Assembly: GCA_943736015.1 (NCBI GenBank)
Contig: OX031058.1
Coordinates: 21,849,001 to 21,913,000, forward strand
Reading direction: 5' to 3'
Source of the DNA: Tridacna crocea
Taxonomy: Eukaryota; Mollusca; Bivalvia; Cardiida; Cardiidae
DNA length: 64,000 nucleotides
Of this stretch, positions 424 through 63,873 are shown one piece after another. Position 1 is the first letter of the stretch. Every line of letters begins with the position of its first letter. The position numbers were made by a program, and so were the translations under genes. Under the pieces are notes generated by a model. That model was not told the DNA's origin. It made no database searches and was given only the letters and a program-made list of their open reading frames with translations.

Positions 424-3400
424 CTGTAGAAACATATAGAACGCATTATCTCGTTTTAACCCTTTGGCTGCTAAGTGTAAGTAAATGACCTTGTGTGGAG
501 AGTGTAGATCAAAATCAGACTGCACAGAACATGCAGTCTGATCTTGGATCTACACTGCCCAACAAGGAGACATTATTCCCCAAAACATACCTTTGAAGCA
601 GCAATATTTGGCACAACTAAATGAGCTTTTGTGGACGATGTAGATCAAGATAAGACTGCACAGAACATGCAGTCTGATCTTGGATCTACACTGCACAATA
701 TGGAGACATTATTCCCCAAAACATAACTTTGAAACAGCAATATTTGGGTTATTAATATTGAACTGAAAATTTTATTTTTAGTTATTTAGCACAATAAGGG
801 TTAACAATGTTTACAGAAGTGGACTTTGAAAAAAGCATCATTGTAAAATATAGAATCTGAATTCGAGGCATGCTCTTGGAAAACAGGATTTGATGCATCT
901 CCCAGATACATTAAACCAAGCAATTTGTTGCATGATAGTGATAGATATTAAAAATAACTTTTATCTAACAAACTGCTAAATCCTAGAGTAGAATCGTCCT
1001 TGGATATGCAGAAAATCACCAAATGCTATATCTGACTGCAAAGCAGGGCTCCAGATTAAGGCATGTCCATGGACTCCTGTCTTCTAAATCTATTTTTGGT
1101 TCGATTTGATTTTTCCACTGAAAATATTGACTACTGCGCATGCACAATTGGCTTCCTATAGAAATTGTTACTAAATTGTCGCTTGTTGAACAAAATCACG
1201 AAGTATGTAAGCGCTCACTTATCTATATAATAGGCTAATTCTCCATGTGTGACTTTGATTTGGTGGCTTTCTTCACTTCAAAATTAAATTTCAAAATGTC
1301 ATTTGACTGGCTATGACAACATCTTCACTTTTGTATAAACTCTGCTAGTCCAAAAAGATTCACTTGATGTAAGAGGTAAATTATAGAAAACAATTACTTA
1401 TCATCCTACTAAGCTGATCTCATTTATTGAATAAATCATATTTACACTGTCCTGGGCGACAAAACTTTAACTGTATCAAAACAGAAAGCATTTACTGACA
1501 ACAAATTCGAAATTCTAAAGAAGCCTTTAGAAAACGTTGTGGGAGAAGGAGAAAATGCTGGTAACCAGTATTTTCTCCTTATCCCACGTTTTCTGTCCTT
1601 CACAGAACAAATTTCAAATTTTTAGTCACTTTTATTTTGTCTTCGGCAAATGCTTTCGATTTGGACAAACCTAAAATTTTGTCCTTTGGTAATTAGTAAA
1701 TAAGTGAGAAAACATTGAGAAAACAAGATAATGCTGATTACCAGCATGATCTCTATCATCTCTATTCCTAGAAAAAATCATACCTTGTGATACAAACAAG
1801 GCTGGAAAAGACAAGAAACAAACAAACCTCCCTCATCTGTGTCAACATTCCTAGGACTATGACCTCTCCGAGTTTAGCTGTTGTGCCGAGTAAATATTCT
1901 ATAGGTTTCAACTGAAACAGGTAAATTATCAAGCCTCAATGATATATACAAGTAATCATCCATTATGTTTTGAATAAAATTATAAACTACCAATTTGATT
2001 TCCTCAGACTCTTTCCTCATTTTAGTCTCTTGTGCTAATTGGAAGCATGCCAAAATAGAACCTGTGCACCATTTGTATTTTGATTTAACATTATCTATAT
2101 TGTTGGAAAAAGAGAAGTGCTGCAGCTTGGTAGCCTGCAATTTCTCTTTTTCATACAATGTTTTCAGTAGTTTTTCAAGGACATGTCTTAACTAAAACCA
2201 AATCTATTTTACAATCTGTATTATGTTTCCATCAAGGACAAGAGGGCCAAGATGGCCCTGGATCACTCACCTGAATTTCTGAGGACCATAGCCAATTTTT
2301 TTTTGGACGTATTGGAACACAGGAAACAAAATCATTATTTTGCCAAGCAATTTTCAAAAGGTCACCCGTAAAACTCATTTCAAAATCTGACCAGCAGTTT
2401 CAGAAAAGAAGAATTTTTAAGAATTTCTCAATTTCCATATAGTGCAAGAAGCCCCCATTCACCAGAGCCATGTTTCTTGACCTATCAATATTTCGCCAAT
2501 TTCTTTTGAAAAGGGTCATTCAAGGAAAATTTCTGTGAAATCATTTTCAAAACTGACAAGCCGTTTCAGAGAAGAAGAACTTTCGAGAATTTCTTCATGT
2601 CTCTATAGTGCAAGTAGCCCCCATTCACCAGAGCCATATTTCTTGACAGATCAAAATTTTGCGAACAGTTTTTGAAAAGGGTCACCCAAGGAACATCTCT
2701 GCGAAATTACTTTGAAATCTGGCCAGCGGTTTCAGAGAAGAAGATTTTTAAAGAATTTCTTAGAAAATTCCATTTGGTTGCCACAGCAACCAGAGTTTTT
2801 GATGGAATCAAAGTCTGTGAACACTTTGGCCCAGCAGTTTAGGAGAAGTTGATGTTTAAAGAATTGTTGATGACGAATGACTGAAGACGGACACCGGGTG
2901 ATCCTAAAAGCTCCCCTTGAGCATGTTGAGCTCAGGTGAGCTAAAAAGTGTAGAATCAAGTCTTTAAGTACATAATTTTTTTTAAAAGCTTTTTTATCAG
3001 CAGTATCTATTATTCCATAGAGACATTAAACTTATCCATATTTCTTGGGTCACTAAAATGTCCCTTGTCCCACAGATGCCTCCCTTTTTCAGCCTCTGGC
3101 TGGGAATCAATCCTAGGATAAAAGTTTCACATCCCACAACTTGATCAAAGCACAACAAGGGAATTTGTATGCAAAGTGGGATATTGGTAATCATCTTCTG
3201 CAAAATGAAGGATAATCGTTTGCTTGCTTGCTTGGTGTATGCTAGGGTGCAGCATAGGTAATCATTCTATTGCAAAATGAACTATGTAGGATAAACCTTT
3301 GCTTCCTTGTTGGTGTTTAACACCATTTTGGTACATTCTTTCAGTCAAGTAACTGCAAGCAGTGCTACTATCTATGCTCTCCCAGACTTATTTTTTATTT

Positions 3401-6400
3401 TTACTTTGCATCACACTCTCATATCACTGACTGCTCTCCTACATTGACATCATAACAATGATCCACATTGAGACTGGAATGAATCCTATCCTTACAGAGC
3501 ATGGCTGTGCTGGAATCTAACGACTCCTGATTAATCAGCCCTCTATAAAAGAGAACTAAGCATTTGGACTGTGCATAAATGATTGTAAACACTATCATAG
3601 AACAATGATCTGAGCCATGCTATGGTAAAATGAGGTTTAATACATCTCCTTGATGCTTTGTACTAAGACAGGCATCATTTAACCCATTACTATTCAATCC
3701 CTACTTTTGACGACCCTGAGAAAGAAGCCTTTAGAAAACATTGTAGGAAAAGGAGAAAATGCTGGTAACCAGCATTTTCTCCTTTTCCCACAATGTTCTC
3801 TACCCTTCACAAAACAAATTTCAAATTTTCAGTCACTTTTATGTTGTCGTCTGCAAATGCTTTCGATTTAGACAAGCCTAAAATAATGTCGTTTGGTAAT
3901 GAGTTAACTATAGATCCGTAAAATCCATTTTATCTGACAACTAACAGAGTTATGTGGTAGACTTGTCCTTTGAGATTCAGATATATGAACAAAAGCGGAA
4001 AGTTTTGACTTGAAGACTATGCAGGCTGACATGGGTTGATAATTTTTGTAGATGAATTGAGTTCCCTTTTTCAAAGTGCATGGCTATTTTATGTGAACAC
4101 TACCTGAAACTTTTTACTTTCTTCTGGCATACTTCCAATAGCAGGAGGTGTGAAAAGATCATGTCTTAATGTTCTCTGAAATGATAAAAACAACTTCTTC
4201 ATATAAAAATAACATATAAAAATATGTATTTAAAATACTTAGACTAGTACGTAGGCAAAAAAGTTGCAGATGACATAAAAAAAGGTTAAACAGTAAAAAA
4301 AAATACAAGAGCTCTGCAAAGCGGAGCATATATGCCTGGCGGGGCTAGATGGTGAAAGAGCTTAAAATAAAAAACGCCTGCAGGTATCCAAGTTTTAAAA
4401 GTCACATGCACAAATACACATCAAAGAGATTCACTGCGGTAAGTGTGAACTTCCAATGAAAACTGTTGGAGTTGCGCACACAAGAAATTGCTAATAGGCG
4501 GACGGACAGACAGACAGAAGACCAGGGCCGTAACATAAAACGACCCTTCCAGCGTATAAAAACACTGTAGGGAAAGGAGAAAACACTGTTTACATAATCT
4601 GTGTTAGTCAACAGCAATATCTGAATGAATAGATCTACATAAATACCTGATGTAAAATTGTATATCTGTCTCGAAACAAGCTGGCTTTATCATTTGCATT
4701 ACCATGTAGACATGGAGGTGGCAGTGCAAGGTTGTTGTTTCTAAATGAAATGAAGATAGAAAGAAACATGCTGACAAACTGACTATTAGAAATTTGCTTT
4801 ACAAAGAGACTCCATATTCTTAGTCTAGTCTTCATCTGAGTTGGCTGCAAAATCAGCATAGTTACAGTCAGCCGTCAAAGAGACAGTTTTTAAACTTAGG
4901 TTTGTTAGATTCTATTCTATTTTAACCAGATTACAAAATTAAATATTTTTCTTAAGCATAATTCTTTTTTCTTTTAAACCCTGAACTTTATCAACCCTGA
5001 GGAAAACATGAAAACATTGTGGGAAAAAGAGAAAATGCTGGTTACCAGCACTTCGTCCTTTTTCCACAAAGGTTTTTCATCTTTTCAAAACAACACCCTA
5101 TCATGCAATCAATATTTATACTGTTGTCTGCAAATGCTTCCATTTCAACAAGTCTAAAATTTTGTTGTTTGTCACAGGGTTTAAAATCTGTATTGTTGTA
5201 TTATCATGATCAAGAGAATCATCCATGTTTTTGTACCATATCACGAAGTATAACTGGATATACTTTCAGACCTCCAGATAGAGGGAGTGATTGTGATTTC
5301 AAACTTGAATATAATAATCATTCTCATCTAAACCCTATGTTGTGGGTAGTCATTAGATTCGTCTCGATGAGACGATTCTAAAGAGTACCCACAACATAGG
5401 GTTTGGAAGAGAAATAACGGATTTCGAATACCATCACTCCCTCATATCTGGAACTCTGTACTTTAATCAGCTCAAACAAATAGCTGAGTCTCAAAGTGTG
5501 CAGAAAAACATTAGAATGCAAGGTCATCCAGTCTAAACTTCATCTATACTCTTTTCAAGAAATGTCACAGGTTGTGACTAGCAGAAGGGACCTAATAAAT
5601 TTGTACAATTTTGCATAGTCAAGCTCTACTAATTAACCTTTCATAAAACAATTCCAAGTTTTAACAACCCTGATGAAGAAAACTTGTTACTACCATTTTC
5701 CTCATTTACCACAATGTTTTCCACACCATCAGACAGAAATAACCATTTGAGGTACAGTTAATTTGTCATCTGCAAATGCTTTCAATTTGATCCTGCTCAA
5801 AGTTCTGTGGTTTAGTATAGAGTTAACTGCCTACTAAAGAGGGCAAACTTTTAGACTGTAAAGCGTAGTCAGGGAGTCTGGTCTCAGTCTAAAATATTTG
5901 CAAGGAAAATCAAAGCCGGTAAATAACTGAAAATAAGCTGAATAATTTTTTGAAGAAAAACATGCATACATACTGTATAAATTTCTTCCTCTCTCTAACA
6001 TATGTGTATCTTGGCACTGAAAATCCATCTATCACAGAAAATATTTTGTCACTGCAATAAACAATATGCTAAACTCATAACTCGTTACCAAACACCAAAA
6101 TTTTAGACTTGTCCAAATTGAAAGTATTTGCAGATAACAAAACAAATGTGACTCAAAAATTGAAACTTGACTACAGAAAAGTAGAATAGATTGTGGGAAA
6201 AGGACAAAATACTGGTTACCCGTATTTTCTCCTTTTCCCACAATTTTTCCTACAGGCTCCTTTCTCATAGTTGTTAAAACTCGCGATTGTATGGTAAAGA
6301 ATTTAACTGAATATGGACTAAATGATTAATAAGGCCCCTTGAAAACAAAAATGAACCCCTTTCTACAGAATGTGATGCTTCACTTCAATGAACCTGAAAA

Positions 6401-9102
6401 AAAAAAAAAAAAAAAAAGATTTTTGAAAATATTGTGGATAAAGGAGAAGTTAAAGATAACCATTTCAAACTGTATCAATACTGACATATGCCAATGAAAT
6501 CAAGATGGAAAAGTCTGAACCTTTTTTATTTGGCATGATAGTTACAAACAAGAGCTTTGCCAAGCTGTGCATGTACACCCAAAGGAGCTTAAGCATTCTC
6601 AGTGGAATGGGTTAAAATCTAGAACGCCTGCAGATATCCAAATTTTAAAAGTCACATGTATAACTACACATCATAGAGATAATTATATTGCTTCAAGTTT
6701 GAACTTATCCCAATGAAAACTGTTGTAGGAGTTACACACACAACGAATTGTTAACTGCCTGACGAATGACTGGGGCAATGACATAATCCAACCCTTTGGG
6801 CATATATAACATGAGGATTGGCCAAGAAAAAATTTGCAAATATCCATTGCAACATCTTTCTCTGAGATAGGAATGAAATGGAAAATTGTGACAAGAGTCC
6901 AGCATCTATATTTCAATATTCCCATGGTTCATACCTAAACACAGCGGACCTAAAGGACATCATTATCTGCCTTCTGAAAAAGGCAACACCAGCAGACTGA
7001 CTGGCCTAAAAATCTATCATTAACCCTTTCCCAAACAACAAAATTTTAGACTGGTCCAAATTGAAAGCACTTGCAGACGACAAAATAAATGTAACTCAAA
7101 AATTGAAAATTGTTTCCAGTAAGGTAGAAAACATTGTGGGAAAAGGAGACAATGCTGGTTACCAGCATTGTCTCCTTTACCCACAATGTTTTCAAAATGC
7201 TTCTACCTTAGGGTCGTAAAAACTAGGGATTGTTTGGTAAAGAGTTAAGTACAATTATACTGTGTTGACTGGGGAATGACACCAGTACAAAATGACAAAC
7301 TAAAATGAAATGGAAAGGAGTGCTGTAAACTTGTGTATATTTGGCACAAGAAATTTTCAAATAGATGGAGGGCAGATGATGTGGCAATCCAAAGTAGGAT
7401 GACCATGCCAAAGCCCCTTTACATGCATTACAGCAGAAACATGATATTGGCTGTGTGTACAAACCCCTTTCATCTAGTATTTTTTTTATACCTACTTGCG
7501 TATTTTTGTTATTCTTAAATCACAGAAAAATTATATAAATCTATATACATGTATCTATACAGGTAACAGATTCAATATACATCTATAAAAAAAAAACTAC
7601 TGTTGGTGTTTTTTGTCTTTTTCCATTATAAAAGTAATGTCTGATTTTGTTGGACAATTAGTCAATCCTTATACAAAGCTATTACTTTTCTTCATCCTGT
7701 TCTGCATTGCATTCTTGAACTGCAGTTTCACAGATAATCTTGTCTATCAGTGGTGATGACACTGTAAAGGACAAAACAAACACATCTCCATTTTCACCCT
7801 TTCCCAAATGAATCCTTGTTTAAAGACCTTGATGGAGAAGGCCTTTAACCCTTTACTACACAATCTTTACTTTAACCCTTTCCCAAATAAGCCCTGGTTT
7901 TTAAGTGTCTGCAGTAAAAGTCTTTTGAAAACACTGTGCTCGTTACGAGCAATTTCTCCTTTTCCCACAGTGTTTTCTACCCTTTTTGAGAACTTTCTGC
8001 CATTTTCTCCAAATCTGAAATTATCGTCTGCAAACTCTTCTGGTTTGGAAGTGTCCAAAATTTGTCGTTTAGGAAAGGGTTAAACAACCCTAAGGAAAAG
8101 GCCTTATGAAACATTGGGGGAAAATGAGAAGATGTCCGTAACCAGCATTTTTTTCCTTTTCATACAATTTTTTCTATACCCTTCCACAAGCAATTTTAAA
8201 AAATTGAGTCACATTTATCTTGTCATCTGCAACTGCTTGCAAATTGGACAATTCTAAAAATTTGACATGCGGTGAAGGTTTAAATCACTGTGATAATAAG
8301 AAAAAAGAAGATCTACATTTTTAAAGATAAGTTTCATTGTGTATAGTTTGTATGTGCCAAGTTTAATCTGTCATCTGCAATTGCTCTTAATAATGGCAAG
8401 TCTGAAATTTTGTCATCTTGTAAAGAGTTAAATACATTGTAGATGCGTTTCAGAATCTAAAACTCAGCAAGATTCTTTACAAAACAAATGTTGATAGCGC
8501 TCCTAGAACTGAGCATTTAAGAAAAAAGGTGAAGATTTGAAAAAAGAATGAAGCCATAATTATGAAATCACTTACAAGGTTGTTTCTGTACTATTTCTAT
8601 GATCTTGTCCAACCATTCACTACAGTCTTCTTCATCTACTTGAGTCAGGACTTCCACCAAGTAGCGACTTGCCTCGCTGCAAAGAAAATAACTCATCATA
8701 TTTTCATCTTTTAACCCATTACCACACAATCCCTAGTTTTGACAACCCTGAGAAATAAGCCTTTAGGAAAGATTGTGGGAAAAGAAGAAAATGCTAGTAA
8801 CCAGTATTTTCTCCTTTTCTCACAATGTTTTCTATCCTTCACAAAACAAATTTCAAATTTTCAGTCACTTATATTTTGTCTTCTGCAAATGCTTTCGATT
8901 TGGACAAGCCAAAAATTTTGTCATTTGGTAATGATTTAACCCTGTAATAAACATTATTACAATCTTGTTTCAACTCGTTACCAAATACTAAATAACAAAA
9001 TCTTGAACGGCAGTCCAAATTCAAAGCATTTGCAGACGTCAAAATAACTATGAATAAAAACTTGAAATTTGAATTGGAAAGGTTAGAAAACACTTTCCAA
9101 AC

Positions 9103-10831: not shown

Positions 10832-11060
10832 TTAACTCATTACCAAACGACAAAATATTAGGTTTGTCCAAATCAAAAGCATTTGCAGACGACAAAATAA
10901 AAGTGACTGACAATTTGAAATTTGTTTTGTAAAGGGTAGAAAACATTGTGGAAAAAGGAGAAAATGCTGGTTACCAGCATTTTCTCCTTTTTCTACAATG
11001 TTTTCTACAGGCTTCCTTCTCAGTGGCGTCAAAAGTATGGATTGTGTGCTAATGGGTCAA
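10832..11060 (-). mobile_element. Palindromic TTAA MITE, full (229 bp)
   Basis: TTAACTCATTACCAAACGAC to GCTAATGGGTCAA; core perfect at GCTGGTTACCAGC. Nested in the 10-13 kb transposon. Confidence 0.92.
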
Positions 11061-11892: not shown

Positions 11893-12180
11893 TTAAACAA
11901 GTGTTTTCAATTTGGACAAGTTTACAATTTTGTCGTTTGGGACAGAGCTTTAAAAGCTAATAGTTAGAGACTGTCTGTGATTAGATAGAGAACATTGTGG
12001 CAAATAAAACAGTTGGCATAAAGCACGTTACCTTCTCCCACAGTGTTTCCTAAAGCCACCTTTTTTTTACACTCATCACCAAACGACAATATTTCGAAAG
12101 CATTTACAGACGACAAGATGAAAGATACTGATTTTTTTGTGTGTGAAGAGTAGAAAACATCATGGGAAAAGGAGAAAATG
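11893..12180. mobile_element. Palindromic MITE fragments
   Basis: A right-arm piece (11893-11955, +), a decayed core (about 11990-12060) and a minus half (12062-12180) cut at the tandem array. Confidence 0.6.
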
Positions 12181-12950
12181 CATAGGGGCCGGATTTTGTT
12201 AAGCCATGAAATAACTGGAAGAAATACGGAAATCTTAGTCCCATTTTACTGACAATATTTCAAAAAGTGTTGCAATGACCACAGTTTATTTCATACCATG
12301 TAAAAGCATGATACCTAAGCTTCAATTTCATACTATTTTGAGCATCTTACAACGAAAAAAAAAAAAAAAAAATAGCATAGGGGCCGGATTTTGTTAAGCC
12401 ATAAAATAACTGGAAGAAATACTGAAATCTTACGCACATTTCACTGACAATATTTCAAAAAGTGTTGCAATGACCACAGTTTATTTCATACAATGTAAAA
12501 GCATGATACCTAAGCTTCAATTTCATACTATTTTGAGCATCTTGCAACGAAAAAAAAAATAGCATAGGGGCCGGATTTTGTTAAGCCATGAAATAACTGG
12601 AAGAAATACTGAAATCTTACTCACATTTCACTGACAATATTTCAAAAAGTGTTGCAATGACCACAGTTTATTTCATACCATGTAAAAGCATGATACCTAA
12701 GCTTCAATTTCATACCATTTTGAGCACAATACAACGAAAAATAAAAAAAATTAGCATAGGGGCCGGATTTTGTTAAGCCATGAAATAACTGGAAGAAATA
12801 CTGAAATCTTACTCACATTTCACTGACAATATTTCAAAAAGTGTTGCAATGACCACAGTTTATTTCATACCATGACAAAGCGTGATACCTAAGCTTCAAT
12901 TTAATACTATTTTGAGCATCTTACAACGAAAAATACAATAATTAGCATGG
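12180..12950 (-). repeat. Right subterminal tandem array (4 units)
   Basis: Four near-identical 188-194-bp units begin GCATAGGGGCCGGATTTTGT at about 12180, 12374, 12562 and 12755. Reverse-complemented they share AAATCCGGCCCCTAT and the GAAATTGAAGCTTA...GGTAT region with the left array. Confidence 0.88.
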
Positions 12951-13960
12951 GGGGCCGTAGGGGCCGGGAATTATTACTTATTTTGTTAGGTAGGGCCGGG
13001 GAATACACTTTGCCTTTCCGTCTCACGTTAGACACACACAGTCATAAAAATCACACAGTTTCGTGATCGTTTCCAAGAGATTTGATACATGTATGCTAAA
13101 ATTTGGATAAAAATATTCCAATGAAAAAATATTTCAACTATTACTTAATGAATTCTGCATGACTTGTCACTTTTATCATGATAATTTAGCCATTCAGTGT
13201 TCTTTTTAGGCAGTGGCTAGAGATACGGTACCGTACCTCTAGCCTATATCAAAGAAATGGCTAGAGATACGGTACCGTACCTCTAGCCCCGGAGTCTAAA
13301 GATACGGTACCGTATCTTTAGTCATTCTTATGATATAGGCTAGAGGTACGGTATTTTGTAGATACATGTAAGAAATTATAAATTTACTTCAGTTTGGATT
13401 ATTATTCGTTATTAGTATGGCTTAGTATCAATCTCGACATCAAAGGACAGAAACTCGTTGCTGTGTGCGAGTTTGCATCGATGCGCGAAAATAATAATTG
13501 CATTGATTAGTTAGGTGAATTTAATTGCTTAAGATGTATGCGGATCTTAAATTATTTTAGCTTTTGTTGTTCTTTAATTGATTATGGAAAACGACATAAT
13601 TAATCAATTACTCAATCACGGAAATTGATAATTAATCTATTACTCAGTCACGGAAAATTTTCTGACAGCACTTTCAAGCCAATTTTGTATCATACGGTCA
13701 AAATGGCTCATAGTATTCACGTCGGGAAGAAATTTGAAGATTTTCAAACATTTAAAAGCGCAATAGAGTGCTATCGAAGTGCAGAAAGTGTGCAGTTTTA
13801 CTAGAGGGATTCTAGGACTATACAAAAAGCCCAGCCGCGCGTACAAACAAAAATAAAAGAAAGGATAAAGTATTACGGGATATCGCTTTAAATACTGTAT
13901 TCATGGTGGCAAGAATTTCATAGCCAGAGGGACAGGAGTGAGAGAACAAAGGTTATCTAT

Positions 13961-14768: not shown

Positions 14769-15246
14769 CAGGAATAATACATATGTTATATAGAATCCCT
14801 GGGTTAAGTAATCAAGTTCACCTAATAATCAAGTTAATCAACGCAATTTTTATTTTCGCTCACAAGTGCACATTCGCACACTGCAACTTGATGAGTTTCT
14901 GTCCTTTGATGCCGATCAATTACTACAAATACATACTAATAACGATAATAATCAAAACTGAGGTAAATTTATAATTTCTTACATGTATCTACATTTACCG
15001 TACCTCTAGCCTATATCATAAGGAATGACTAAAGATACGGTACCGTATCTTTAGACTCCGGGGCTAGAGGTACGGTACCGTATCTCTAGCCATTTCTTTA
15101 ATATAGGCTAGAGGTACGGTACCGTATCTCTAGCCACTGCCTTCTTTTTATCCTTCAGTTGAAATTTTCGGTATCCTAAAATGGTGGGCGAAATGGAAAT
15201 TTTTGTCTCAAAATGGAAAATGTCTCTGAATGAATTTGATAGGACT

Positions 15247-15475
15247 TTAACCCATTACCACACAATCCCTACTTTTGACGCCCCTGAGAAAGAAGCCTTT
15301 TGAAAACACTGTGGGAAAAGGAGAAAATGCTGGTAAGCAGCATTTTCTCCTTTTCCCACAGTGTTTTCTACCCTTCCCAGAACAAATTTCAATTTTTCAG
15401 TCACCTTTATTTTGTCGTCTGCAAATGCTTTCAATATGGACCAGTCTAAAATTTTCTCGTGTGGTAAAGAGTTAA
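15247..15475 (+). mobile_element. Palindromic TTAA MITE, full (229 bp)
   Basis: Both TTAA kept; core with CACTGTGGG/CCCACAGTG variant in both arms. Confidence 0.93.
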
Positions 15476-20097: not shown

Positions 20098-20326
20098 TTA
20101 ACCCATTACCACACAATCCCTACTTTTGACACCCATGATAAAGAAGCCTTTTGAAAACACTGTGGGAAAAGGAGAAAATGCTGGTAACCAGCATTTTCTC
20201 CTTTTCCCACAGTGTTTTCTACCCGTCCCTGAACAAATTTCAATTTTTCAGTCACCTTTATTTTGTCATCTGCAAATGCTTTCAATTTGGACCAGTCTAA
20301 AATTTTCTTGTGTGGTAAAGAGTTAA
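20098..20326 (+). mobile_element. Palindromic TTAA MITE, full (229 bp)
   Basis: Both TTAA kept. Core 20153-20219 is a perfect inverted repeat with 33-bp arms and one central base at 20186. Confidence 0.95.
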
Positions 20327-23997: not shown

Positions 23998-24050
23998 GTA
24001 GATCAAAGATCAGACTGCACGTTTTGTGCAGTCTGATCATGATCTACACA
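23998..24050. repeat. GATCAGACTGCACA hairpin
   Basis: Stem GTGTAGATCAAAGATCAGAC / GTCTGATCATGATCTACAC with a short loop; in duplicated block U1. Confidence 0.7.
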
Positions 24051-24196
24051 GACTCTACAGGCAACTTTTACTGTATATTGCACTTTGAAGTTTTCGTTTT
24101 TACGCGCCTTTAGACATCGAACCTCTGTCGACGATTTGAACAGTGTACTGGAACTACATCTATCTGATAAAGATTTTAACTCTATCCAAATAGGCT

Positions 24197-24305
24197 TAAC
24201 CCTTTCGGCGCCACAGGCGAAAGCGGAGACTTTTGTGGACGGCATAAATCAAGATCAGACTGCACAGAACGTGCAGTTTGATCTATGTCATCCGCTGGTG
24301 TAGTC
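24197..24305. repeat. TTAA-started GATCAGACTGCACA element
   Basis: Begins TTAACCCTTTCGGCGCCACA with a small GGCGCC palindrome, then the AAGATCAGACTGCACAGAAC hairpin half. Confidence 0.5.
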
Positions 24306-43493: not shown

Positions 43494-43723
43494 TTAACCC
43501 AGTACACACAGCAAAACTTTAGACACTTCTAAATTGAAAGCATTTGCATACGACAATTTAGATGTGGGTCTAATGATGGAAGTTGTCTATATAAGGGTAG
43601 AAAACAATGTGGGAAAAGGAGAAAATGCTGGTTACCAGCATTTTCTTCTTTTCCCACAATGTTTTCGGAAGGCTTAATTCTTCTCAGGGTCATTAAAAGT
43701 TGTCATTGTATGTAAAGGGTTAA
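43494..43723 (-). mobile_element. Palindromic TTAA MITE, full
   Basis: Both TTAA kept; core nearly perfect, GCTGGTTACCAGC. About 120 bp left of the FIBP start codon exon. Confidence 0.92.
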
Positions 43724-43925: not shown

Positions 43926-46900
43926 GTAAAACATGTCCTATATGACCTGCAATAAATGAAAAAGCGGATTTGGACATTAATGTAAGGTGTTGTCTCAGGT
44001 CAACCTGCACAGTATGCGCAGGCTAGTTGTAATTTTCTATTTTGCGCAAGTCTACTAAAGAACAAAATCTAATGTAGGTCTAAGTTAAGTGATGTCTCGG
44101 ACTAATCATTAGCCTGCGCAAATTGTGCAGACTGATCTGAGACAAAATTTTATGCAAATGTCCAGGAAAAATCATGAGAAAGTGGCTGTTTAGCCAGAGT
44201 TTGGGAAAAGCAAAAAAACATAAATGTGTAGACAAAAAGTTGGCAGGACTTGAACCCATAGCTATAGTCGTTAGTCAGTATCTGTATTGACTGTGATATA
44301 GGAAAAACTACTGTAGTTGTTTGCCGTATTGAAAATAAATTTATTCTTTGTTTTGCTATAAAGACTGTACCATTTCTAAGGGAATACAAAATTTACATTA
44401 AAGCTACAAAAAACTGGGTCTTGTTTTCTTTTTTACAAATTTTCCCAATAAAGTTTTATGTTTATAGCTATCTTTGCATGTAAATGAAAATTAATAATCT
44501 TAATTAATAAACTTACAAAATGAAATCTGATTTAATACTAAACCGCTCCATCCAGACTTTTAACAGCCCTGAGGATGACAGCTCTTGTGCAGTCTGTTAT
44601 CTGTTTCTCTACGTTTTGTTTGATTTTTATCTCATTTTGAAATTGATTTTTCTGCCAGCGACTTTCACATGGACTGACCATACAACAATAAAATGTTATC
44701 CTCTCAATAATTTCCGTACATGTACTTTTAAAAGATAGAATTTAAATTCAAAATTAATGCATTTTAAAACACGATTTGTTTCGTTTTGGTTGCTACTTGG
44801 CCTTTAAGTCTTCACCAGACAGCAAGATGCATTTGCAGATGACAAGTCATACATGGCTGAAAAAATGGAACTTTAATAAGAGTGCAAGACATGGCGGGAA
44901 ATGGAAAAAATGATGTTTACCAGTATTTTTTCCTTTTCCCATAATATTTTCAAAAACCTGTTTTCCTCATAGTTGTGAAACATAGTGTTGCACTGTACTC
45001 TGTATAATCATTGACCAACTATTCTTAGCATAAATGACTTTGAGAAAGATGAATTTGAAAAAAATGAGGGGAAAAAGAGAAAATGCTCAGAACTAGCATT
45101 TTCTCTTTTCCGCCATATTGTTTTTTGAATGGCAGGTTGAATATGAATCTCATCTTTTCAATCACATTTAATCTATTGTCTGCAAAATGTTCTGAATTTG
45201 ATTGAGTCTAAACAAATCTGTTGTGTGGTTGAAAATTTGCTGTTTTATTTTCAGTTAATGAATGTGTTACAGTACTACAGCACAGAGGTGTGTTACAGAC
45301 ATCTGTAGCTGGATATGATGAGCTAATGAGTGATGTAAAGGACCATTTTAGGCTGTTTATTGGGCTGGAGCACCTGCTAAAATGTCCAACAAAATTTGGG
45401 GAACAAACCTTGCACCAGATTGATCCGAATACACAGTCTATGCTTATTCAAAAGTATGTGGTTCTGCCTGATTTTAACTCATTACCAAACAACAATATTT
45501 TAGGCTGGTCAAAGTGGAAAGCATTTGCAGACCACAAAATAAAAGTGACTGAAATTTGAAATTTGTTTTGTGAAGGGTAGAAAACATTGTGGGAAAAGGA
45601 GAAAATGCTGGTTACCAGCATTTTCTCCTTTTCCTACAATGTTTTCTAAAGGCTTCTTTCTTAGGCTCGTCAAAAGAAGGGATTGTGTGGTAGTGGGTTA
45701 AAATAGATATGAGACTTCGTTGTGAAAAGGAGGTTTAATGCATCTGCAAAAATTATCAACACAGGTCAGCACGGGCACTCTGCACAGGCTGATCTTAGTG
45801 GAAACTTTCTACTTTTGATAAATTGCATGTTCAAGGCCCATCCTACCTCAGGATTCAGCTAGCTGTCAAACATAGTGGGTTATTTTGCCCATAATTATTG
45901 CCATGATGCCTTAAACCCCACTTTGTAAAAGCACCAATCATTCACTTAGTGCCATACGAATCTCATGAGTCTCTTGGCTTCTGCTGTAGAAGACACTTGA
46001 AAATGGTATGAGAAAAGGAGCAGTTTTTATCACAAACTTATCCTGTATTTTCTTTAAAGGAAATAGCTTGACATTTTGAGTGGTGAATAAAAGAAATTGT
46101 TATATTCTGACTGTAGAAAAGACAAAGCTATTACATTTTTGAGGCTAGTGGAAAGGTATTGATTTTTGTGCTTGCAGAATCAGACTGCATTTGGTGTGCT
46201 ATTCAATCTTGATCTTTGTTATCTGCTAAGCATATTCTAACCAGCTAACTAACTGGTTACCAGCATTTTCTCCTTTTCCAACAATGTTTTCTATTTCAGG
46301 GCCGTAAAAACAAGGGATTGTTTGGTAAAGGGTTAAGGGTTCATATTTTTTCCATTTTTGTTTTCAGACTTTTCTTATTATATAAAAATACTTAAAAGTA
46401 TACTAAGATACATTTTTTGTGTAAAATTTGTGAACAGATATCTGATACACATGTGAATGTTTTGTTTTAGATATTACCAGTTTGATGATGTTATGATTCG
46501 AGAAATTTTGGGTAAAAAATTGTCAACCAAAAACAGAAACAGCCTGGACGATGTAAATGACAAGACAAGAATAGCATTGAGAAGCTGTCGAAGACAGGTT
46601 TGTTGGCATTGCCTTTCACTTAACCCATTACCACACAATCCCTTTTGACGCCCTTGAGAAAGAAGCCTTTTGAAAACACTGTGGGAAATGGAGAAAATGC
46701 TGGTAACCAGCATTTTCTCCTTTTCCCACAGTGTTTTCTACCCTTCCCAGAACAAATTTCTATTTTTAAGTCACCTTTATTTTGTCGTCTGCAAATGCTT
46801 TCAATTTGGACCAGTCTAAAATTTTCTCGTATGGTAAAGAGTTAATATCCTATACTTTTATGTTTACTAATAATTTGTCAGAGGTCCATCAAGCTGAGTT

Positions 46901-49900
46901 CAGGTCTTTGATAGGTAGTAAGAAATCTTGTTGATGCTGGTCACATAGCTCTGTCTTTTGGCAAGGCCTAGCAATGTCCCAGCCAAGTACCTGTGAAAAT
47001 GAAGAAAGACTTGACTAGGTTAACAGCTGTTATGTGATTTAAAGTACTGTTCAGAATAGTCAATAACCCTCTGACAATGAAATAAACAAAAAATTGTGGA
47101 TTAGCCATAGAATTATTGTAGTATACTCATATGATAGATTACAATAACATCTTCCATGGTGCTTTGGTGTAGATGATTGCTGTTACAGGAGACCACTCCC
47201 TCATACATGGCCTCGTCCCGATTTAAATACAATACCTAACAACTGCATTAGGGAGATATCTCTTTAGCTCAGTGGTTATGGTATTGGTCTTTTAACTCTT
47301 TACCAAACGTCAAAACTTCAGACTGGTCTAAATTGAAAGTACAAAATAAAGGTAACCCAAAAATTTAAATTTGTTTCCAGCAGGTAGAAAACATTGTGGG
47401 AAAAGGGGAAAATGCTGGTTATCAGCATTTTCTCCTTTTCCCACAATGTTTTCTAAAGGCCTCTTTAACAGGGTCATTAAAAGTCGGGATTGTGTGGTAA
47501 AGGGCTAAACCTCGAAAAACGAGGATATTTGTCCACCATGGGTTCAAATCCCGCCCGATGGGGTTTGTATTTCTGCCATGAATTTGTTTTTATGTTCGTA
47601 AGATTTCTAACAAAAATACAGGTGGTATCATCATACTGTGAATTGTTCACCCACATAGTGTCATAGCCTAGTAAGTGACATGGATGGCTTGAAACCAGGG
47701 AATAGCTGGTTCCAAACCCAGCTAGGCCAGTTTCTTTCAGAGGATTGATGATAGTTTATTTCTCTCCTACCACTGATCATTGTTTCAAATATGTTTATGT
47801 GGAAAAGCAGCCAGTGGCTTTGGAAGAATATTGTAGAGCACTCAGTGCTTGTAAAAGAAAGCTCAAGGAAAGGCTGGCACTGGCGGCCACAGTATACATG
47901 TACATGTAATTGAAATAATATTTAAAGCTTTACTCCATAGATACTCGTTTCTATGCATTGCTTGTAGGAGCCTTTGGAAAACATTGTGGCAAAAGGTGAA
48001 ATTGCTCGTGACGAGCAATTTCACCTTTTGTCACAATGTTTTCTATGTTATCAAAAAGTGTCATATACACATAAGAGACAGCTTCATCCTTCCCATTATT
48101 TAGGGTCAATTAGAGATAACAAAGAAATACCTTATGGGGTAAAGGGTTAAAACATTACAAAAAAATCAGAAGTAACTTAGAAAAAAACCAGTGTTTTTAA
48201 TATCACTGTTTAATTGTTTACAGGAAGAAAAACATCAATACATTTACAAAATGAAAAGTAGAATACCCAGTGCATTTGGACCCCTGCTGAAAAATCACAC
48301 AAAGAAAAATTGTATACTTTTATGGCTGAACATCACATTACTTATTGTTATTGCAGGAATACTGGTGGTTGCTTAGGAGCTGAAATTAGCTTGCAAATCA
48401 TTAATTAGGGATTTTATTGAATTTTTCATCAACCAAAAGAATGCTATGCACAGTTTCTGTTGCTTTTATTGAACGATGTTCAATATAGTCAGAATATACA
48501 GAATGTGTCTTGGATCTACGTTGTTCACTACTTCGTAGCATATTTTGGCAAAAACAGTCTTTTAAAAATAGTAATACATTGATTACATGCATTTGTTGAT
48601 TCATTTCAGTTTGACAATGTTAAAAGGGTATTTAAGACTGTTGAGGAGATGCCAGGATCTCTGGAAAAGAACATTCAGACTCACTACTTATTGTCTGATG
48701 ATCTTTCCAGGTAAGCTTTGTACTGTTCATGCTATGGTTGGTTGGTTTAACGCCACTTTAACAGCTAAGGTCATATCATGGTGGTCGGTGACGCACATGT
48801 GTTTCCTGGCTTTCTCACCAGTACTAACACTACTTTCTTTCCAAAGCCACCGGCTACTTTTCTCACATGCTTCAGCAGAGGTGAGAGGCGAAAATATGCC
48901 GGAAAGAAAGTTCGCCTCAACTGGGTATCTAACTCACAACCACCAGGTCATGAGTCCGACACACTCACCACTGAGCCACTGGGGCAGGCATTCATGCTAT
49001 AATGACTGTATTTGTTTGTTTATCTGTTTGATAAAGGGTTACACCTGTCGAATTGAATCAGGTTTATGTTTGAAGGGTTTGATAAGCTAGATTATCCCAT
49101 GTGCCCTTAATGTTGTACAAGAATTAATAGACAATGGTGGTAAAGCTTTGCTACATAGACTATTTTTTTCCTAAAGCAAATAATCCTGACAACCATTTTT
49201 CGTTTTCAGTTTTCATGTCACATATTATGTTGTTGTCTTCAAAATATGCTTTCAATTTAGACAAGTCCAAAATTTTTATTTAACTCTTTACCACACAATC
49301 ATGACTATTACCCCTGTATAAGAAGCCTTTTGAAACCATTGTTGGAAAAGGAGAAAATGCCGGTAACCAGTGTTTTCTTCTCTATCCAAAACAAAAATCA
49401 TTATTTCAGTCACATTTGATTTCTTGTCTGCAAATCCTTTTCAGTTTCGACCAGTCTATTTTCTTGTGTGGTAAAGACTTACATAAAGAGTACATGTTCT
49501 TCCATGTTTTATGTTGTAGGAAGTATGCAGCGATAGTATTTATGGCCAACCATAGGTTTGAAACAGGAAAAAAGAAGTTGAACCACTTAACTTTTGATGA
49601 TTTTATGTTTTGTGCAGTACTCATGATTGCAAACTGGTCCTACAGTGCAGTTGGTATGTATCAAGCTTCCAAACCTTCTTTGGTTTCAAGTGAATAAAGA
49701 CGGCAAAAACACATCAGCCATTCTCAGCGAAAAAGCGATTCGATACATTTGCAAAAATTATTTACTCATGTCAGCCTGCACATGCTGATGAGCAAAAACT
49801 TTTAACTATGTGTATGTTTTCAGCATGTGCAAGGACCATTCTATTCATGATTCAGTCTTGATAAAATGGATTTGATTAATCCATGATTATGTGATTACTG

Positions 49901-52900
49901 TGTGGTATCATCCATCATAGTGATGCATTACCCCACGTTTTCCCAGATTGGAGCTTAAATGTATTTGACTGCCTGTTATGGCCTGATAAAAGGAGTTTTT
50001 TTGTTGTTCTTTTGACTTCTATTTTGATATATATCTAGACAAGAAGATAGCAAAAATTACCTTCCTTGGCATATAGTACAAGAAGATATCAAAAACTATC
50101 CTCCTTGGCATTCAGTACAAAAAAAGTTACTGATCACTACTTTCCTCGGCATACACATGTAGTGCAAGAAGATGTCAATGACAACCCTCGTTGGCATTCA
50201 GGACAAAAACAGATAGGGATTGGCATATAGTGCAAGAAGATAGTGATCAGTACCTTCCTTGGCATATAGTACAAGAAAATATTTAGTTACTACCATCCTT
50301 GGCATTCAGTACAAGAAGATAGCGATAAATACCTTCCTTTACATACAGTACAAGAAGATATTAATAACTTCCCTCCTTGGCATTCAGTACAAGAAGATAG
50401 CGATCACTAACGTCCTTGGCATTCAGTACAAAAAAAGATGGTGATTGCTAGCTCCCTTGACATTCAGTCCTAAGAAGCTTGGGTCGGAGAGAACATGGTC
50501 TATCATTTGTGGTGTAATGTGGTTGTTTATAATTACATAAGCAGAGTATCCTCTATCCCCTAAAGTGTTTCGCAGAAAATGTATACAAAGATCAGCCAGA
50601 ATACGAATATAACAGGAAATATGTATTAACTTCGTACAAAACAATTTCATATTTTAACAACACTAAAGCGGAAGACTATGCTGGTTACCTCTTTTTCCCC
50701 ATAACATTTCTTTCCTTTCAAAGACAAATCACATAACTTGAGCCATGTATTTTTGGTTACATATAAAAAGCTTTAAATTTCGACAAGTCTAAGAATTGTT
50801 TACTTGGTAGGATGATCATCTTAAAGATGAATGAAAAGCTATGCATAAAAAGGTTCTTGCATAATACAGATAGATTTCTTCCTTTTATTCAAATCTTGAA
50901 ATTTAAACACTGTGACAGATAAGTATGTATTTTTATTGCAGAGTGTGATGACCACGAGGACATGGATGTAGATTTAGACAGGACTTTCTTACAGGATCTC
51001 CGAGATCTAAAACAAATCATGGACCGAGATTGTTTAGATGAGCATAAAATGTAGGTATTATGGTATGGCAATACTTGCCCATATTTCAGAATACCAGTTA
51101 ACCTTCACTCATAAACCCAAGTTGAGGAATCCTGAGGGAGAAGCCTTTGAAAAATTGTGGAAAGAGAGAATTGTTTACTCTTTCGAGGATAAATCTTCTA
51201 AATAGCTATGGTTTGCAAATTCTACTGATACGAACCAGTGTAACACTTTGTTTAGTAAACAGTTTAATTCTGAATCCAAAAAACAAGCTTGTTAATTAGG
51301 AGAGACAGACAGCCAAAATGTCTTGGAAATAATAACAAGAAAGGAGTGTAGCAATATTGGTGAACACAGCTCTGGATTTCTTTGTGCCATCAATTAGATA
51401 GCATTTTGAAAAAGAAGAAACTAGCTTATTACAGGGATGTTAATCCAGAATGAAAGATGGAATGATGTAACCTAATGATAATTCTTTTATGAATTACAGG
51501 TATGTGCTGAATAACTTAAAAAGCAGTTTAAGTAAAAAAAAGCAGAATGAAGTTGAAGATAGTTTTAAGGTAATTTTCTGTTTCTATCTTGAGGCTTACT
51601 TCTTGGCAGGTTTCACAACTCTTTTGAATATTTTTACCATGGCATCATTATCACTTTGAGCATCACAGTCAAATGTTAAAGCCTTTGCAGACAGCCTAGA
51701 TAAAGATCCAACTGCACAGAATGGGCAATGTGTTCTTGGATCTACTGTGTCTGTATCTTTCCTAAATTGTAAAATGGTCCAAAAGCCATAAGTTAAGTCT
51801 GTTTATTTAGAATTTGAAAAGCTACTGATATACATCTATAGACTTATTTCTACATATCGAAAAACAGTAACATAGGCCTAAAAATCTTGTTTAATGAAAA
51901 ATGGGGAAAAAAACTCATTGTACCCATTTCGTTGGATCCTCTTATATGTATAAATATTTAGATATATCTGCCAAAAATAATCTGTGAAAGTATTTGTCTG
52001 ATTAGGAAAGTTATCAGCTATATATGCGGCAGTATTTTCTAGACACTTGGGTTTCCAAAATTGCAGTATGGATATCTATCTTCTTTCTTTTGTCGGTCTT
52101 GAGTTTTGAGTTGTGGTCAAGTTCATACACTACTTGCAGAATGCAGAGTAAAGTGTAGATGTATGTTCATGGATACTGTAGTTGGCCTTGCAGCTAGTTC
52201 ACTTTTGTATGCAGTCCTTGAGTTTTCTTCAAGAATGAAGAAGCATACTAGAATTTTACTCTTGTTCCAGGTCTTTTCAAAATCCATTGTTAATATTGCA
52301 TATGGTTTGAACCACAGTAAAGAAGCTAAAAACTTTTTTATAGATGTCACAGAAAAGGTGAGTGTATCCTCAACACAATATGAACTCTAGTTGTATTTTA
52401 ATGATGTTCTAGATCAAGTTCACACTTAGTGAAGCATGCAGTTTCCAATTATGTATGCATTAACAGAGGCCATTTGATTCTAAATTACACCCAAAAAGTT
52501 CATCTATTTACGGTCAAAAGTGTATGTCAATTTTTTTTAAACCCTTTACCATACAATTCCGACTTTTAATGACCCTAAGATAGAAGCATTTTGAAAACAT
52601 TGTGGGAAAAGGAGAAAATGCTGGTGACCAGCATTTTCTCCGTTTCCCACAATGTTTACTACCCTGCTAGAAACAAATTTTAATTTTTGAGTTATCTTTA
52701 TTTTGTTGTGTGTAAGTGCTTTCAATTTGGAACAGCCTAAAATTCAGTTGTTTGGTAAAGAAGTAAAGGTTTTTAACATCTCATTCTTCCACTGCCAAAT
52801 ACATGTAGATGAATTACACTTTTTCAGTGACAAAAGGTAAAGTTTCACTGCAAGATGAAGAGACAGTTTAGCCATAATCTAAAAAGTTAAGTTGCCCACA

Positions 52901-54198: not shown

Positions 54199-54425
54199 AA
54201 ACCCATTACCAAATACATGTAATGCTGAGTTTTGATGGCCTTTGAAAAGAAGGCATTTGGAAATACTGTAAGAAATGAAGAAAATGCTGGTAGCCTGTAT
54301 TTTTTTCTTTTCCAAAAGTGTTTTCTACCCATATACATTCAAGTCCTACTCTCTTTGCCTTATCTAATTTGTTGGCTGCAAATATACTCAAATTGGATTA
54401 GTGAACAATATTTCTATCTGTCTGC
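54199..54425 (+). mobile_element. Palindromic MITE, diverged
   Basis: CCCATTACCAAATACATG, ATGCTGGTAGCCTG, TTTGTTGGCTGCAAATATAC. Confidence 0.6.
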
Positions 54426-54518: not shown

Positions 54519-54731
54519 TTAACTCGTTACCAAATGACAAATGTTTGGACAGGTCCAAATTGAAAAAGATTTGCAGTCGACAGATTAAATGTTACTGGAA
54601 TGATGGTTTTTGTTTTGGATGGGGGCAGAAAAAGTGGTGGGAAAAGGATAAAATGCTGGTCACCAGCATTTTCTTCTTTTCCCATAACGTTTTCAAAAGC
54701 CTTCTCCTTCTCGGGATTGTAGGGTAAAGGG
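54519..54731 (-). mobile_element. Palindromic TTAA MITE, near full
   Basis: TTAACTCGTTACCAAATGAC; core GCTGGTCACCAGC; right arm shortened. Confidence 0.8.
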
Positions 54732-54774
54732 TGGATTGAAGGGAGTTTTTGAACCAAAATTTAGACTTATCTAC

Positions 54775-55183: not shown

Positions 55184-55412
55184 TTAACCCTTTCCCAAAC
55201 ATTCTCTGGTTTTTACGGGTCTGGAATAGTAGCCTTTTGAAAAGATTGTGGGAAAAGGAGAAAATGCTGGTTACCAGCATTTCGTCCTTTTCCCACAATG
55301 TTTTCTACCCTTTCATAGGCAGAAATCATTTTTTCAGCAAGAGTTGAATTGACGTCTGCAAATGCTTTCAATTTGGTCTAGCCCTAAAGTTTGTCGTTTG
55401 GGAAAGGGTTAA
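55184..55412 (+). mobile_element. Palindromic TTAA MITE, full (229 bp), B-type arms
   Basis: TTAACCCTTTCCCAAACATT...GTTTGGGAAAGGGTTAA; core GCTGGTTACCAGC. Confidence 0.92.
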
Positions 55413-55676: not shown

Positions 55677-55884
55677 TTAACGACAATATTTTAGACTGTT
55701 CCACGTTGAAAGCATTTGCAGACAGCAAAATAAAAGTGATTGAAAATTTGAAATTTGTTTTGTGAAGGGTAGAAAACATTGCTGGAAAAGGAGGAAATGT
55801 TGGTTACCAGCATTTCTCCTTTCCCCACAATGTTTTCTAAAGGCTTCCTTCTCAGGGGCATCAAAAGTAGTGGTAATGGGTTAA
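55677..55884 (-). mobile_element. Palindromic TTAA MITE, shortened
   Basis: Both TTAA kept; lost part of each end; AATAAA near 55731 lies in its long arm. Confidence 0.85.
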
Positions 55885-56078
55885 TTCTTGTTACACACTT
55901 GAAATGTTTAGCACTACCTTACTTGCCTGTGCTCATGAAGCAGATTAAGATGAGACTTCACAGAATTTGTAGAAAAGACCCTCGGAAATGCAATGCAAGA
56001 TTCTATCTGCAGACAAAAAGATGTATAATATGATCTTTTGAGTACACCAAGTGTTTCAGAGGTACTAGCAGCTATACT

Positions 56079-56272
56079 TTTACCCCATTATCCGAAATTA
56101 GTGAACCTTAAGAAGAAAGCTTTTGAAAACATGGTGAGATAAGGAGAAAATGCTGGTAAACTAGCATTCCCACAATGTTTTCTATTGTTCAAGAGAGCCA
56201 CAATTGAAATTTTATTTTTAAATGCTTTCAGTTTGGACTTGTCTAAAAGTTTCTTGTTTGGGAAAGAGTTAA
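56079..56272 (+). mobile_element. Palindromic MITE, diverged
   Basis: Core right arm largely deleted; ends GTTTGGGAAAGAGTTAA. Confidence 0.7.
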
Positions 56273-56603: not shown

Positions 56604-56836
56604 TTAACTTGTTGTTACCAAACAACAATATTTTAGACTGGTTCAAATTGAAAGGAATTGCAGACGACAAAATAAATGTGACTGAAAATTTGAAATTTGT
56701 TTTGTGAAAGGTAGAAAACATTGTGGGAAAAGGAGAAAATGCTGGTTACCAGCATTTTCTCCTTTTCCCACAATGTTTTCTAAAGGCTTTTTTTCTCAGG
56801 GGCGTCAAAAGTAGGGATTGTGTGGTAATGGGTTAA
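56604..56836 (-). mobile_element. Palindromic TTAA MITE, full
   Basis: Perfect 35-bp arms around one central base, starting TAGAAAACATTGTGGG at 56712. Confidence 0.95.
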
Positions 56837-56926: not shown

Positions 56927-57160
56927 TTAACTCTTTACCAAACAACGAAATTTTAGACTGACACAGTCCAAATTGGAAGTATCTGCAGACGAAAAAATTT
57001 ACGTGACTTAAAAATTGAAATTTGTTTTGGGAAGGATAGAAAACATTGTGGGAAAAGGAGAAAATGCTTGTTTCTAGCTCTTCTCCTTTTTCCTCCATGT
57101 TTTTCAGAAGGATTCCTTCTCAGGGTTGTAAAAACCCAGGATTGTTTGGGAAAGGGTTAA
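56927..57160 (-). mobile_element. Palindromic TTAA MITE, full
   Basis: Both TTAA kept; 6-bp insertion in the long arm; core centre GCTTGTTTCTAGC. Confidence 0.88.
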
Positions 57161-57504: not shown

Positions 57505-57730
57505 TTAACCGTTTCCCAAACAAGCCCTGGTTTTTACGTGTCTGCAGTACTAGTCTTTTGAAAACACTGTTGGAAAAGGAGAAATTGCTCATGACGAGCA
57601 ATTTCTTCTTTTCTCACAGTGTTTTCTACCCTTTAGGAGAACTTTTCCATTTTCATCAAATTTAAAATTGTTGTCTACAAACTCCCTCAGTTTGGAAGAG
57701 TTTAAAATTTGTCTTTTGGGAAAGGATTAA
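57505..57730 (+). mobile_element. Palindromic TTAA MITE, subfamily B, full
   Basis: TTAACCGTTTCCCAAACAAG; core GAAATTGCTCATGACGAGCA. Confidence 0.88.
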
Positions 57731-57740
57731 GTGTGCTTTT

Positions 57741-58439: not shown

Positions 58440-58683
58440 TAATAAACGACAAAGTTTTAGACTCTTGATAAACGACGAAGTTTTAGACTTGTCCAAATTG
58501 AAAGCATTTGCGGATGACAAAATAAAAGTGACTCAAAATTTGAAACTTGACTTAGAAGGGAAGAAAACATTGTTGGAAAAGGAGAAAATGCTGCTTACCA
58601 GCATTTTCTCCTTTTCCTACAATGTTTTCAAAAGGCTTCTCGTAAGGGTCGATAAAAGTAGGGATTTTGTGGTAAAGAGTTAA
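58440..58683 (-). mobile_element. Palindromic TTAA MITE with duplicated left end
   Basis: ATAAACGACAAAGTTTTAGA occurs twice at the left (58442 and 58471); core GCTGCTTACCAGC. Confidence 0.85.
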
Positions 58684-61192: not shown

Positions 61193-62094
61193 TATGTAGC
61201 GATTGAAATGGTTAAAACCTGGCATTCATGTTCAACGTTAAATAGTAATATCCGATGAGTAATCTCCCTTTGACTGTGTTAACGTATTTCCAATCTAACT
61301 GCATTTTCACTACTTTAACGTGCTCTGTGTATAGCACCGTGAAACAAGACAACGAGTTGAGTTCCAAAGACAGTAATTTCACTTACGAAGCCTTTTGAAT
61401 GAAACCCACACGCTCAAAGTTTGAGATCGGTAACCCTGGATAAAAATTATATCGAGATAGACTAGGACCCACAGCTACTATATGTGGTCCATTTACCAAA
61501 TCATGGTGCCTTTAGCTAACTAAAGTGTAATTTAGTTCAGAAATCCTCGACACTATTTTCTCATCATTGTCTCATATTATGTCTGTGGGTAAAAGATCGA
61601 CAGCTGGCCGAGAATTAATTTCGAAATACCGCTCTTCAGTCTGTTCCTTCAAACTGTGACTTATCTCTAACTATGGCAAGAAAACACCATTAAGACACTT
61701 GAGGCGTTCTGAATGTCTCCTAGTTGCGATATCTTGAAATCTCGGGTCATTTTACACCGCAATATTTTCTTTTACTAAATCATCGAACTAATTTGCTGTA
61801 TACGGATAATAAATTTTCCAAAAGTGCTGTTTTGACTGGAATTGTAAACAAGATCAGATCATGTTTTTCCCCTCATAGTCTTTGCCGGACACTCCAACTA
61901 TACATAGTCCAATTCCCGAGAATATGTTTTATTTTCAGAGTTACATACCATCTGATTGGCTACACCAGAACGATTTACACAATTAAAAAAATTGTTAATT
62001 TCACAATCTAGAATTTGATTGACAACATGCTATAGAATGGTTGTGAATTATTGCACCTTCTGGTCTTTCATTTTATTTCTTGTTTATTTCACGT
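61193..62094. other. No gene seen
   Basis: A 95-codon ORF (61724-62011) has no coding character I recognise; no repeats identified. Confidence 0.4.
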
Positions 62095-62255
62095 AATAAA
62101 AGTGACTGAAAATTTGAAATTTGTTTTGTGAAAGGTAGAAAACATTGTGGGAAAAGGAGAAAATGCTGGTAACCAGCATTTTCTCCTTTTCCCACAATGT
62201 TTTCTAGAGGCTTTCTCAGGGCGTCAAGAGTAGGGATTGTGTGGTAATGGGTTAA
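62095..62255 (-). mobile_element. Palindromic MITE, 5' truncated, perfect core
   Basis: Core from AGAAAACATTGTGGG at 62137 has perfect 34-bp arms; right TTAA kept. Confidence 0.92.
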
Positions 62256-63390: not shown

Positions 63391-63688
63391 TAATCATTTA
63401 TACAAGTTTGTGGACTAGGGTGTCGCACGTTTACGTATGTAACAATAGCGGGTCTTCTATCTTATTATATAAGTATCGCAGTCTTCATAGTTCTATTTAT
63501 AAGCCTTATTGATTCTGCCTAAGACCGCTAATAACGTGTCGTATAAACAACCAATTACCTTCATGCGTAATTTTTGTCCCTTAGAATCGGAAAACATTGT
63601 GACAAATAGATACGCGTTCGAATAAGTTGTGTTTTACCATACTAGTCTGTTTTATAACTCATTTCTCGTTTTACACGAGGAGAGGTTT

Positions 63689-63873
63689 TTAACTGCATTA
63701 CCAAACAGCCCCTGGTTTTTACGACCCAGAGAAAGAAGCCTTCTGAAAACATTGTAGGAAATTTTCTCCTTTTCCCACTCTGCTTTCTTCTCTTCTAAAG
63801 TCACGTTTCAATTTGTGAATCACGTTTATTTTGTCGTCTGCAAATGCTTTCAACTTGGGCAAGTATAACTTTT
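63689..63873 (+). mobile_element. Palindromic MITE, left core arm deleted
   Basis: TTAACTGCATTACCAAACAG; goes from ACATTGTAGGA directly into TTTTCTCC. Confidence 0.75.

Follow-up and report, generated by a model that had tools for sequence, protein, structure and literature searches.

What keeps a long palindrome perfect inside a short element that has multiplied throughout a genome? The question is raised by a 64,000-nucleotide stretch of the giant clam Tridacna crocea (contig OX031058.1, positions 21,849,001 to 21,913,000; C3:21849001-21913000 in our genome search), here called the window, which the original prediction described as dominated by one dense family of palindromic miniature inverted-repeat transposable elements (MITEs). 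Based on our findings, we propose that these are TTAA-inserting MITEs, most likely moved in trans by piggyBac transposases, and that their symmetrical palindrome is probably kept as copies with matching arms multiply.

Structure of the element

Clustering the copies and building a consensus gave an element of 229 bp, the length that had been predicted. Beyond the TTAA it has inverted ends of about 14 bp (end sequences CCCTTTACCACACAA or CCCTTTACTCCATAG). The left part stops at position 55, the palindrome takes up the next 67 bp, and the right part fills the remaining 107 bp. The palindrome (positions 56-122 of the model) is internal and off-centre, with 33 pairs around one central base; if a T/T mismatch at 55/123 is tolerated, the core reaches 71 bp, in agreement with the predicted core of 67-71 bp with a single central base. 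Among 83 end-complete copies, that is, copies from the window and the samples described below that aligned to both model ends, CCC-type termini were found as predicted at the left end (50 of the 62 copies listed).

Three families share a palindrome that changes in pairs

The single family of the original prediction has to be divided. Our profile searches yielded 329 matches, of which 178 long ones were aligned, and clustering by flanks gave families A (129 copies), B (12) and C (9). At least three families exist, with widely diverged flanks and a palindrome that is 87-91% identical: core identity is 58/67 for A-B, 61/67 for A-C and 60/67 for B-C, and flank identity is 54/125, 84/125 and 50/125, respectively (40-67% overall). 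The A-B flank identity exceeds that of 5,000 shuffles (mean 33.8, maximum 52), and the left and right parts are equal in length among the families. The terminal repeats are unlike between families and largely match inside each; 7-9 of the left 10 terminal bases and 9-12 of the right 14 are identical between families. All three consensuses agree in the outer part of the core, GAAAACA-TGTGG.

Each of the three consensuses has 0 mismatched pairs out of 33, and the view that the core is unusual in its symmetry is supported. Where the consensuses differ, both arms differ. The left arms of A and B are unlike at positions 69, 76, 81 and 86, and their right arms at precisely the mirror-image positions (4/4); in all four cases the base pair is swapped, G-C for C-G or A-T for T-A. 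The A-C changes at 63, 81 and 86 and the B-C changes at 63, 69 and 76 are likewise mirrored (3/3 each). The chance of exact mirroring is about 3e-7 for four changes and about 7e-6 for three. Counts of exact patterns, which do not depend on our profile, showed the same pairing genome-wide: the inner 31-base core occurs 191,599 times with A/A arms, 15,594 times with B/B arms and 10,018 times with C/C arms, and mixed arms occur once for A/B or B/A and 10 times for A/C or C/A (backward-read controls, 0).

Resident copies lose the symmetry

In trees of 173 copies, internal branches gave a core-to-flank length ratio of 0.17-0.24 and terminal branches one of 0.57-0.61; nearest-neighbour pairs gave ratios of 0.52-0.82 over six divergence classes. 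Observed arm mismatch and that expected under independent decay were 0.096 and 0.110 in A, 0.053 and 0.055 in B, and 0.094 and 0.090 in C. At an ordinary pair (83/95, transition), 6,194 of the 6,350 variants genome-wide were one-sided (>97%). Since the arms of resident copies decay almost independently, it is the spreading lineages that keep the symmetry: resident copies lose it, with at most slight correction, and the source lineage is where it is of consequence or is restored. In the orientation used, resident copies showed no G.U excess of the kind expected as an RNA-hairpin signature; G.T and A.C mismatches numbered 190 and 203 over 35 pairs and 129 and 172 over the 28 non-diagnostic pairs, and the slight A.C excess would equal a G.U excess on the opposite strand.

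Abundance in the window and in the genome

A full-length profile, started from six seed copies and rebuilt from the window and sampled stretches, gave 92 matches in the window, of which 65 score at least 50 bits and 45 at least 100 bits. The matches occupy 24.3% of the window; reversed sequences gave 0 matches, so that the dense palindromic MITE that had been predicted here is confirmed. A core-only search found 68 distinct core places. Our comparison sample, nineteen 10-kb stretches from 18 chromosomes (254 kb together with the window), held 237 matches covering 21.6%. Because these stretches are equally dense, the density is not peculiar to the window. Within the 254 kb, 136 of 165 strong near-palindromes belong to the MITE family.

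The genome searched has 1,048,827,098 bases in 31 contigs, 18 of them longer than 40 Mb. Extrapolation to it, which answers the call for a genome count, puts the matches of ≥50 bits at about 1.00 million copies (95% bootstrap interval 0.68-1.36 million) that make up 18.9% of the genome (interval 12.7-26.3%), and those of ≥100 bits at 0.75 million copies and 15.4%. When the central base is required to be A on one strand or the other, the inner 31-base palindrome has 183,553 exact occurrences, the A/A count given above being for any centre, and the pattern read backwards has none. The MITE thus appears to have multiplied about a million times, to about a fifth of the genome, and it has the other marks of a MITE: short, non-coding and uniform in length, at 229 bp, with TTAA and inverted ends. 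To our knowledge, a 229-bp element at about 19% of a 1.05-Gb genome would rank among the largest single-family MITE contributions known. We found no prior description of the family in the literature, a search that lay outside the repeat databases and most subscription papers, and an Rfam gathering search of the window gave 0 matches.

TTAA is duplicated on insertion

TTAA stands at both ends in 81 of the 83 end-complete copies, a set biased towards TTAA by the model, which has this motif at its own ends. Empty sites point the same way. When the flanks of 85 copies were joined, 19 had junction-spanning matches, 362 in total, many of them repeats of one nested case and some of low identity. The copy at 28053-28254 (- strand) has a paralogous empty site at L004:4474-4636, 91% identical over 163 bp with a single TTAA, and the joined flanks of the copy at 56927-57160 (- strand) match an uninterrupted MITE at TTAA, weakly (about 67-73% identity). 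A further copy, L013:8261-8488, is inserted in another MITE copy at TTAA, where uninserted copies carry CTTTTAACG. Nine neighbouring pairs with complete adjoining ends have one TTAA in common. These results support the duplication of TTAA on insertion and bear out the predicted target.

Eight of the nine TTAA-sharing pairs are inverted, and half would be expected if orientation were random (L004, L005, L007, L010, L013, L015 and L016).

Candidate transposases

The genome has at least 118 matches to PF13843 (piggyBac transposase), many with open frames and several scoring equally, as recent copies would. From TTAA, the CCC(T/A) ends and these matches, piggyBac mobilisation would be the best reading, as originally predicted, a prediction supported in part; none of the transposase matches listed falls in the window, which agrees with the predicted lack of an autonomous partner there. 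We read the ends of 13 of the transposase loci. Seven gave both ends and one the left end, of the types CCCTTTATATAC, CCCATTTATGCC and CCCTAGTCATGC; none equals the MITE's ends or is like them past the first seven bases, CCCTTTA.

In L026 (775-3762), a MITE copy is interrupted by a piggyBac element (868-3633) that has CCCTTTATATAC ends. L028 holds a 486-amino-acid piggyBac-like transposase frame (298.5 bits). MITE copies lie near this frame, and 3.8 kb of sequence showed no terminal pair; four other places in the genome with frames of this length score 298.0 bits each.

Relation to known elements

Near-palindromic, non-coding MITEs are familiar from MADE1 and Angel, in which the whole element forms a hairpin and the ends themselves pair. 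The clam MITE resembles them in being near-palindromic and non-coding, and differs in that its palindrome is internal and off-centre. The closest known system is that of the coral CMITEs of Acropora (Wang et al. 2010, PMC2872659), which we compared by description. CMITEs are described as having TTAA duplications, CCCTTT-type termini and piggyBac relatives in the genome, and as forming several families with unlike ends and a common internal region more conserved than the ends (PMC2872659). The clam consensuses follow this pattern, with 58-61/67 in the core against 7-9/10 and 9-12/14 at the left and right ends. CMITEs are about 100 bp long with about 1,600 copies (PMC2872659), in contrast to 229 bp and about a million here; the role of their internal region is given as not known (PMC2872659), and "palindrom", "hairpin" and "secondary structure" have 0 occurrences in the text of that paper. 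What is new here is that the conserved internal region is a perfect palindrome in consensus with paired changes, together with the scale.

The T2-MITEs of Xenopus, linked to Kolobok, are likewise TTAA-specific, prevalent and long-lived families, and differ in a terminal AGGRR motif that is attributed to the Kolobok transposase (PMC6004289); "palindrom" has 0 occurrences in the text of that paper. Animal piggyBac elements share TTAA with the clam MITE and have CCCTT and CCCAT among their conserved 5' end motifs (PMC10813416). They differ in encoding a transposase, and the loci that we read share with the MITE only the first end bases.

Why the palindrome stays symmetrical

We suggest the following mechanism as the probable one. 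A piggyBac-type transposase would move the MITEs in trans and insert them at TTAA; copies with matching arms, which could form a cruciform or hairpin, would go on multiplying; and the palindrome would be kept because such copies keep multiplying. Several of our results weigh against this proposal. At the right end CTC is about as frequent as CCC: of the 65 copies listed from the 83, 30 have CTC and 27 have the predicted CCC. The 13 transposase loci included no autonomous element with MITE termini. Our models were seeded with the core, which biases the copies located towards conserved cores; families B and C rest on their 12 and 9 copies, and 28 of the 178 aligned copies, in smaller groups, were left out. 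The scarcity of mixed-arm cores is also predicted by descent without recombination, which alone does not give the mirrored pairing of every consensus change; a stronger point for the proposal, though from just three groups, is that none of them had changed in one arm only. The core is slower than the flanks on terminal branches too, which does not fit a purely source-level account; unresolved family structure may explain part of this low rate, and the effect does not vanish. Finally, two-sided variants are in excess, with 156 against about 50 expected by independence at pair 83/95 (about 3-fold) and 28 against 12.2 in the sampled alignment of the 28 non-diagnostic pairs, which may reflect some arm correction or hidden small lineages.

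This excess, together with the perfect symmetry of all three consensuses, is what would be seen if symmetry arose by mechanism and not by selection: at extrusion or replication of a source copy, one arm would template the repair of the other, and source lineages would stay perfect automatically. Correction alone leaves the slow core unexplained (58/67 between A and B, against 54/125 in the flanks), and more than 97% of resident-copy changes at the tested pair are one-sided. We regard templated repair as a possible and rather unlikely explanation.

Another account is that the palindrome is a two-fold symmetrical site for a dimeric protein, either the transposase or a host factor, with paired changes that track changes in the protein. 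The constancy of GAAAACA-TGTGG would fit it, the sequence being constrained as well as the symmetry. A binding site would not need all 33 pairs to be symmetrical in every consensus, which goes beyond separate contact points, and all four A-B changes being base-pair swaps also makes this account doubtful.

More speculatively, the palindrome might act in cis as an amplification module. Folded into a cruciform or hairpin, it would allow a TTAA element that moves by cut-and-paste to increase in number, for instance because excision is coupled to replication or because transposase is recruited at an internal site; in the coral CMITEs, the conserved internal region may be a second case. We regard this as rather unlikely.

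It is very improbable that the families came to share their core by recombination or conversion and not by constrained common descent. The core is indeed alike and the flanks very unlike, as recombination would have it; against it stand the paired variants, which are specific to a family and hardly ever mixed between arms, the equal part lengths, and the A-B flank homology above the shuffles. Equally hard to credit is another class of element: Helitrons make no target duplication and have no terminal inverted repeats, and the MITE has both the TTAA duplication and inverted ends, with few genome matches to Helitron_like_N (at least 32), even if a giant-clam repeat table gives 22.48% to the rolling-circle class (PMC11700175); and Kolobok likewise uses TTAA (PMC6004289), while most MITE ends start with CC or CT, not RR.

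Copies and other features in the window

Bit scores below are from the full-length profile search. Family A is represented by a full copy at 3679-3907 (+, model 1-229, 233 bits), whose core was found at 3734-3799 (+) by the core-only search. A subfamily of A in which pair 63/115 is C-G includes full copies on the + strand at 15247-15475 (248 bits; core 15302-15368, one pair broken), 20098-20326 (240 bits; core 20153-20219, perfect at 33/33 pairs) and 46620-46845 (235 bits), and a copy at 38627-38853 (-, model 3-229, 243 bits). The copy at 47923-48150 (+, 120 bits) belongs to family B by its different flanks and pair states, with four compensated pair changes in the core, and that at 57505-57730 (+, 166 bits) to family C, with compensated pairs 63, 81 and 86. 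A copy with a C-like core, 7872-8083 (+), is nested in another, with TTAACCC at 7845 and 7872; the interrupted outer copy (+) comprises about 7845-7871 and the right part at 8084-8283 (model 32-229, 122 bits).

Further full copies lie at 8711-8939 (212 bits), 38135-38363 (238), 38372-38601 (192) and 55184-55412 (211) on the + strand, and at 7020-7248 (231), 37365-37593 (230), 43494-43723 (182) and 45474-45701 (226) on the - strand. Other copies on the + strand are at 1517-1697 (152 bits), 4978-5181 (119), 26805-27027 (182), 27581-27783 (129), 37620-37807 (108), 49280-49481 (132), 52540-52765 (214), 54200-54415 (102), 56078-56272 (103) and 63696-63872 (128). Those on the - strand are at 6078-6302 (188 bits), 10832-11058 (219), 26034-26261 (204), 26534-26758 (223), 28278-28504 (194), 28688-28918 (164), 28954-29181 (216), 29826-30060 (209), 33640-33824 (160), 39284-39499 (150), 47292-47508 (195), 54519-54732 (155), 55679-55884 (182), 56615-56836 (226, perfect core at 56714-56780), 58469-58683 (191) and 62092-62255 (152, model 1-168, lacking the right part, perfect core at 62138-62204).

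A Pfam search of 10 of the 14 open reading frames of at least 110 amino acids in the window gave one match, an exon of the gene for FIBP (acidic fibroblast growth factor binding protein) at 49512-49655 (+, E 3.3e-18), and the MITE copy at 49280-49481 is directly upstream of it. Another palindromic repeat, whose arms resemble GATCAGACTGCACA...TGCAGTCTGATC, occurs at 482-747 and 24004-24287 and in L006, L007, L010 and L015, and forms a 136-bp tandem pair in one place. Clusters of GGTACC-centred palindromes (CTAGAGGTACGGTACCGTA...) lie about 1.8 kb apart at 13201-13353 and 15020-15135, and a tandem array at 12175-12953 has four copies of a period of about 187-192 bp with 92-93% matches. Outside the window, three equal-scoring partial MITE copies at L017:634, 2306 and 3978 are exactly 1,672 bp apart, and the MITE there appears to sit within a longer tandem repeat.

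Significance for the genome and for MITEs

In size, the MITE family about fits a known repeat class of T. crocea, the 22.48% of "rolling-circles" in one giant-clam table, a comparison by size alone; for Cerastoderma edule that class stands at 2.67% in the table, and the paper disagrees internally, its text placing the matching T. maxima number under DNA transposons and its table under rolling-circles (PMC11700175). Another T. crocea table, from a 1,303-Mb assembly, lists 1.03% Helitrons and 34.9% unclassified DNA elements (PMC10858879). If the palindrome were an amplification module, this would account for one family reaching about a fifth of the genome. With about 217,000 exact inner palindromes, the sum of the A/A, B/B and C/C counts, and paired changes at the level of families, the role of a MITE internal region becomes testable.

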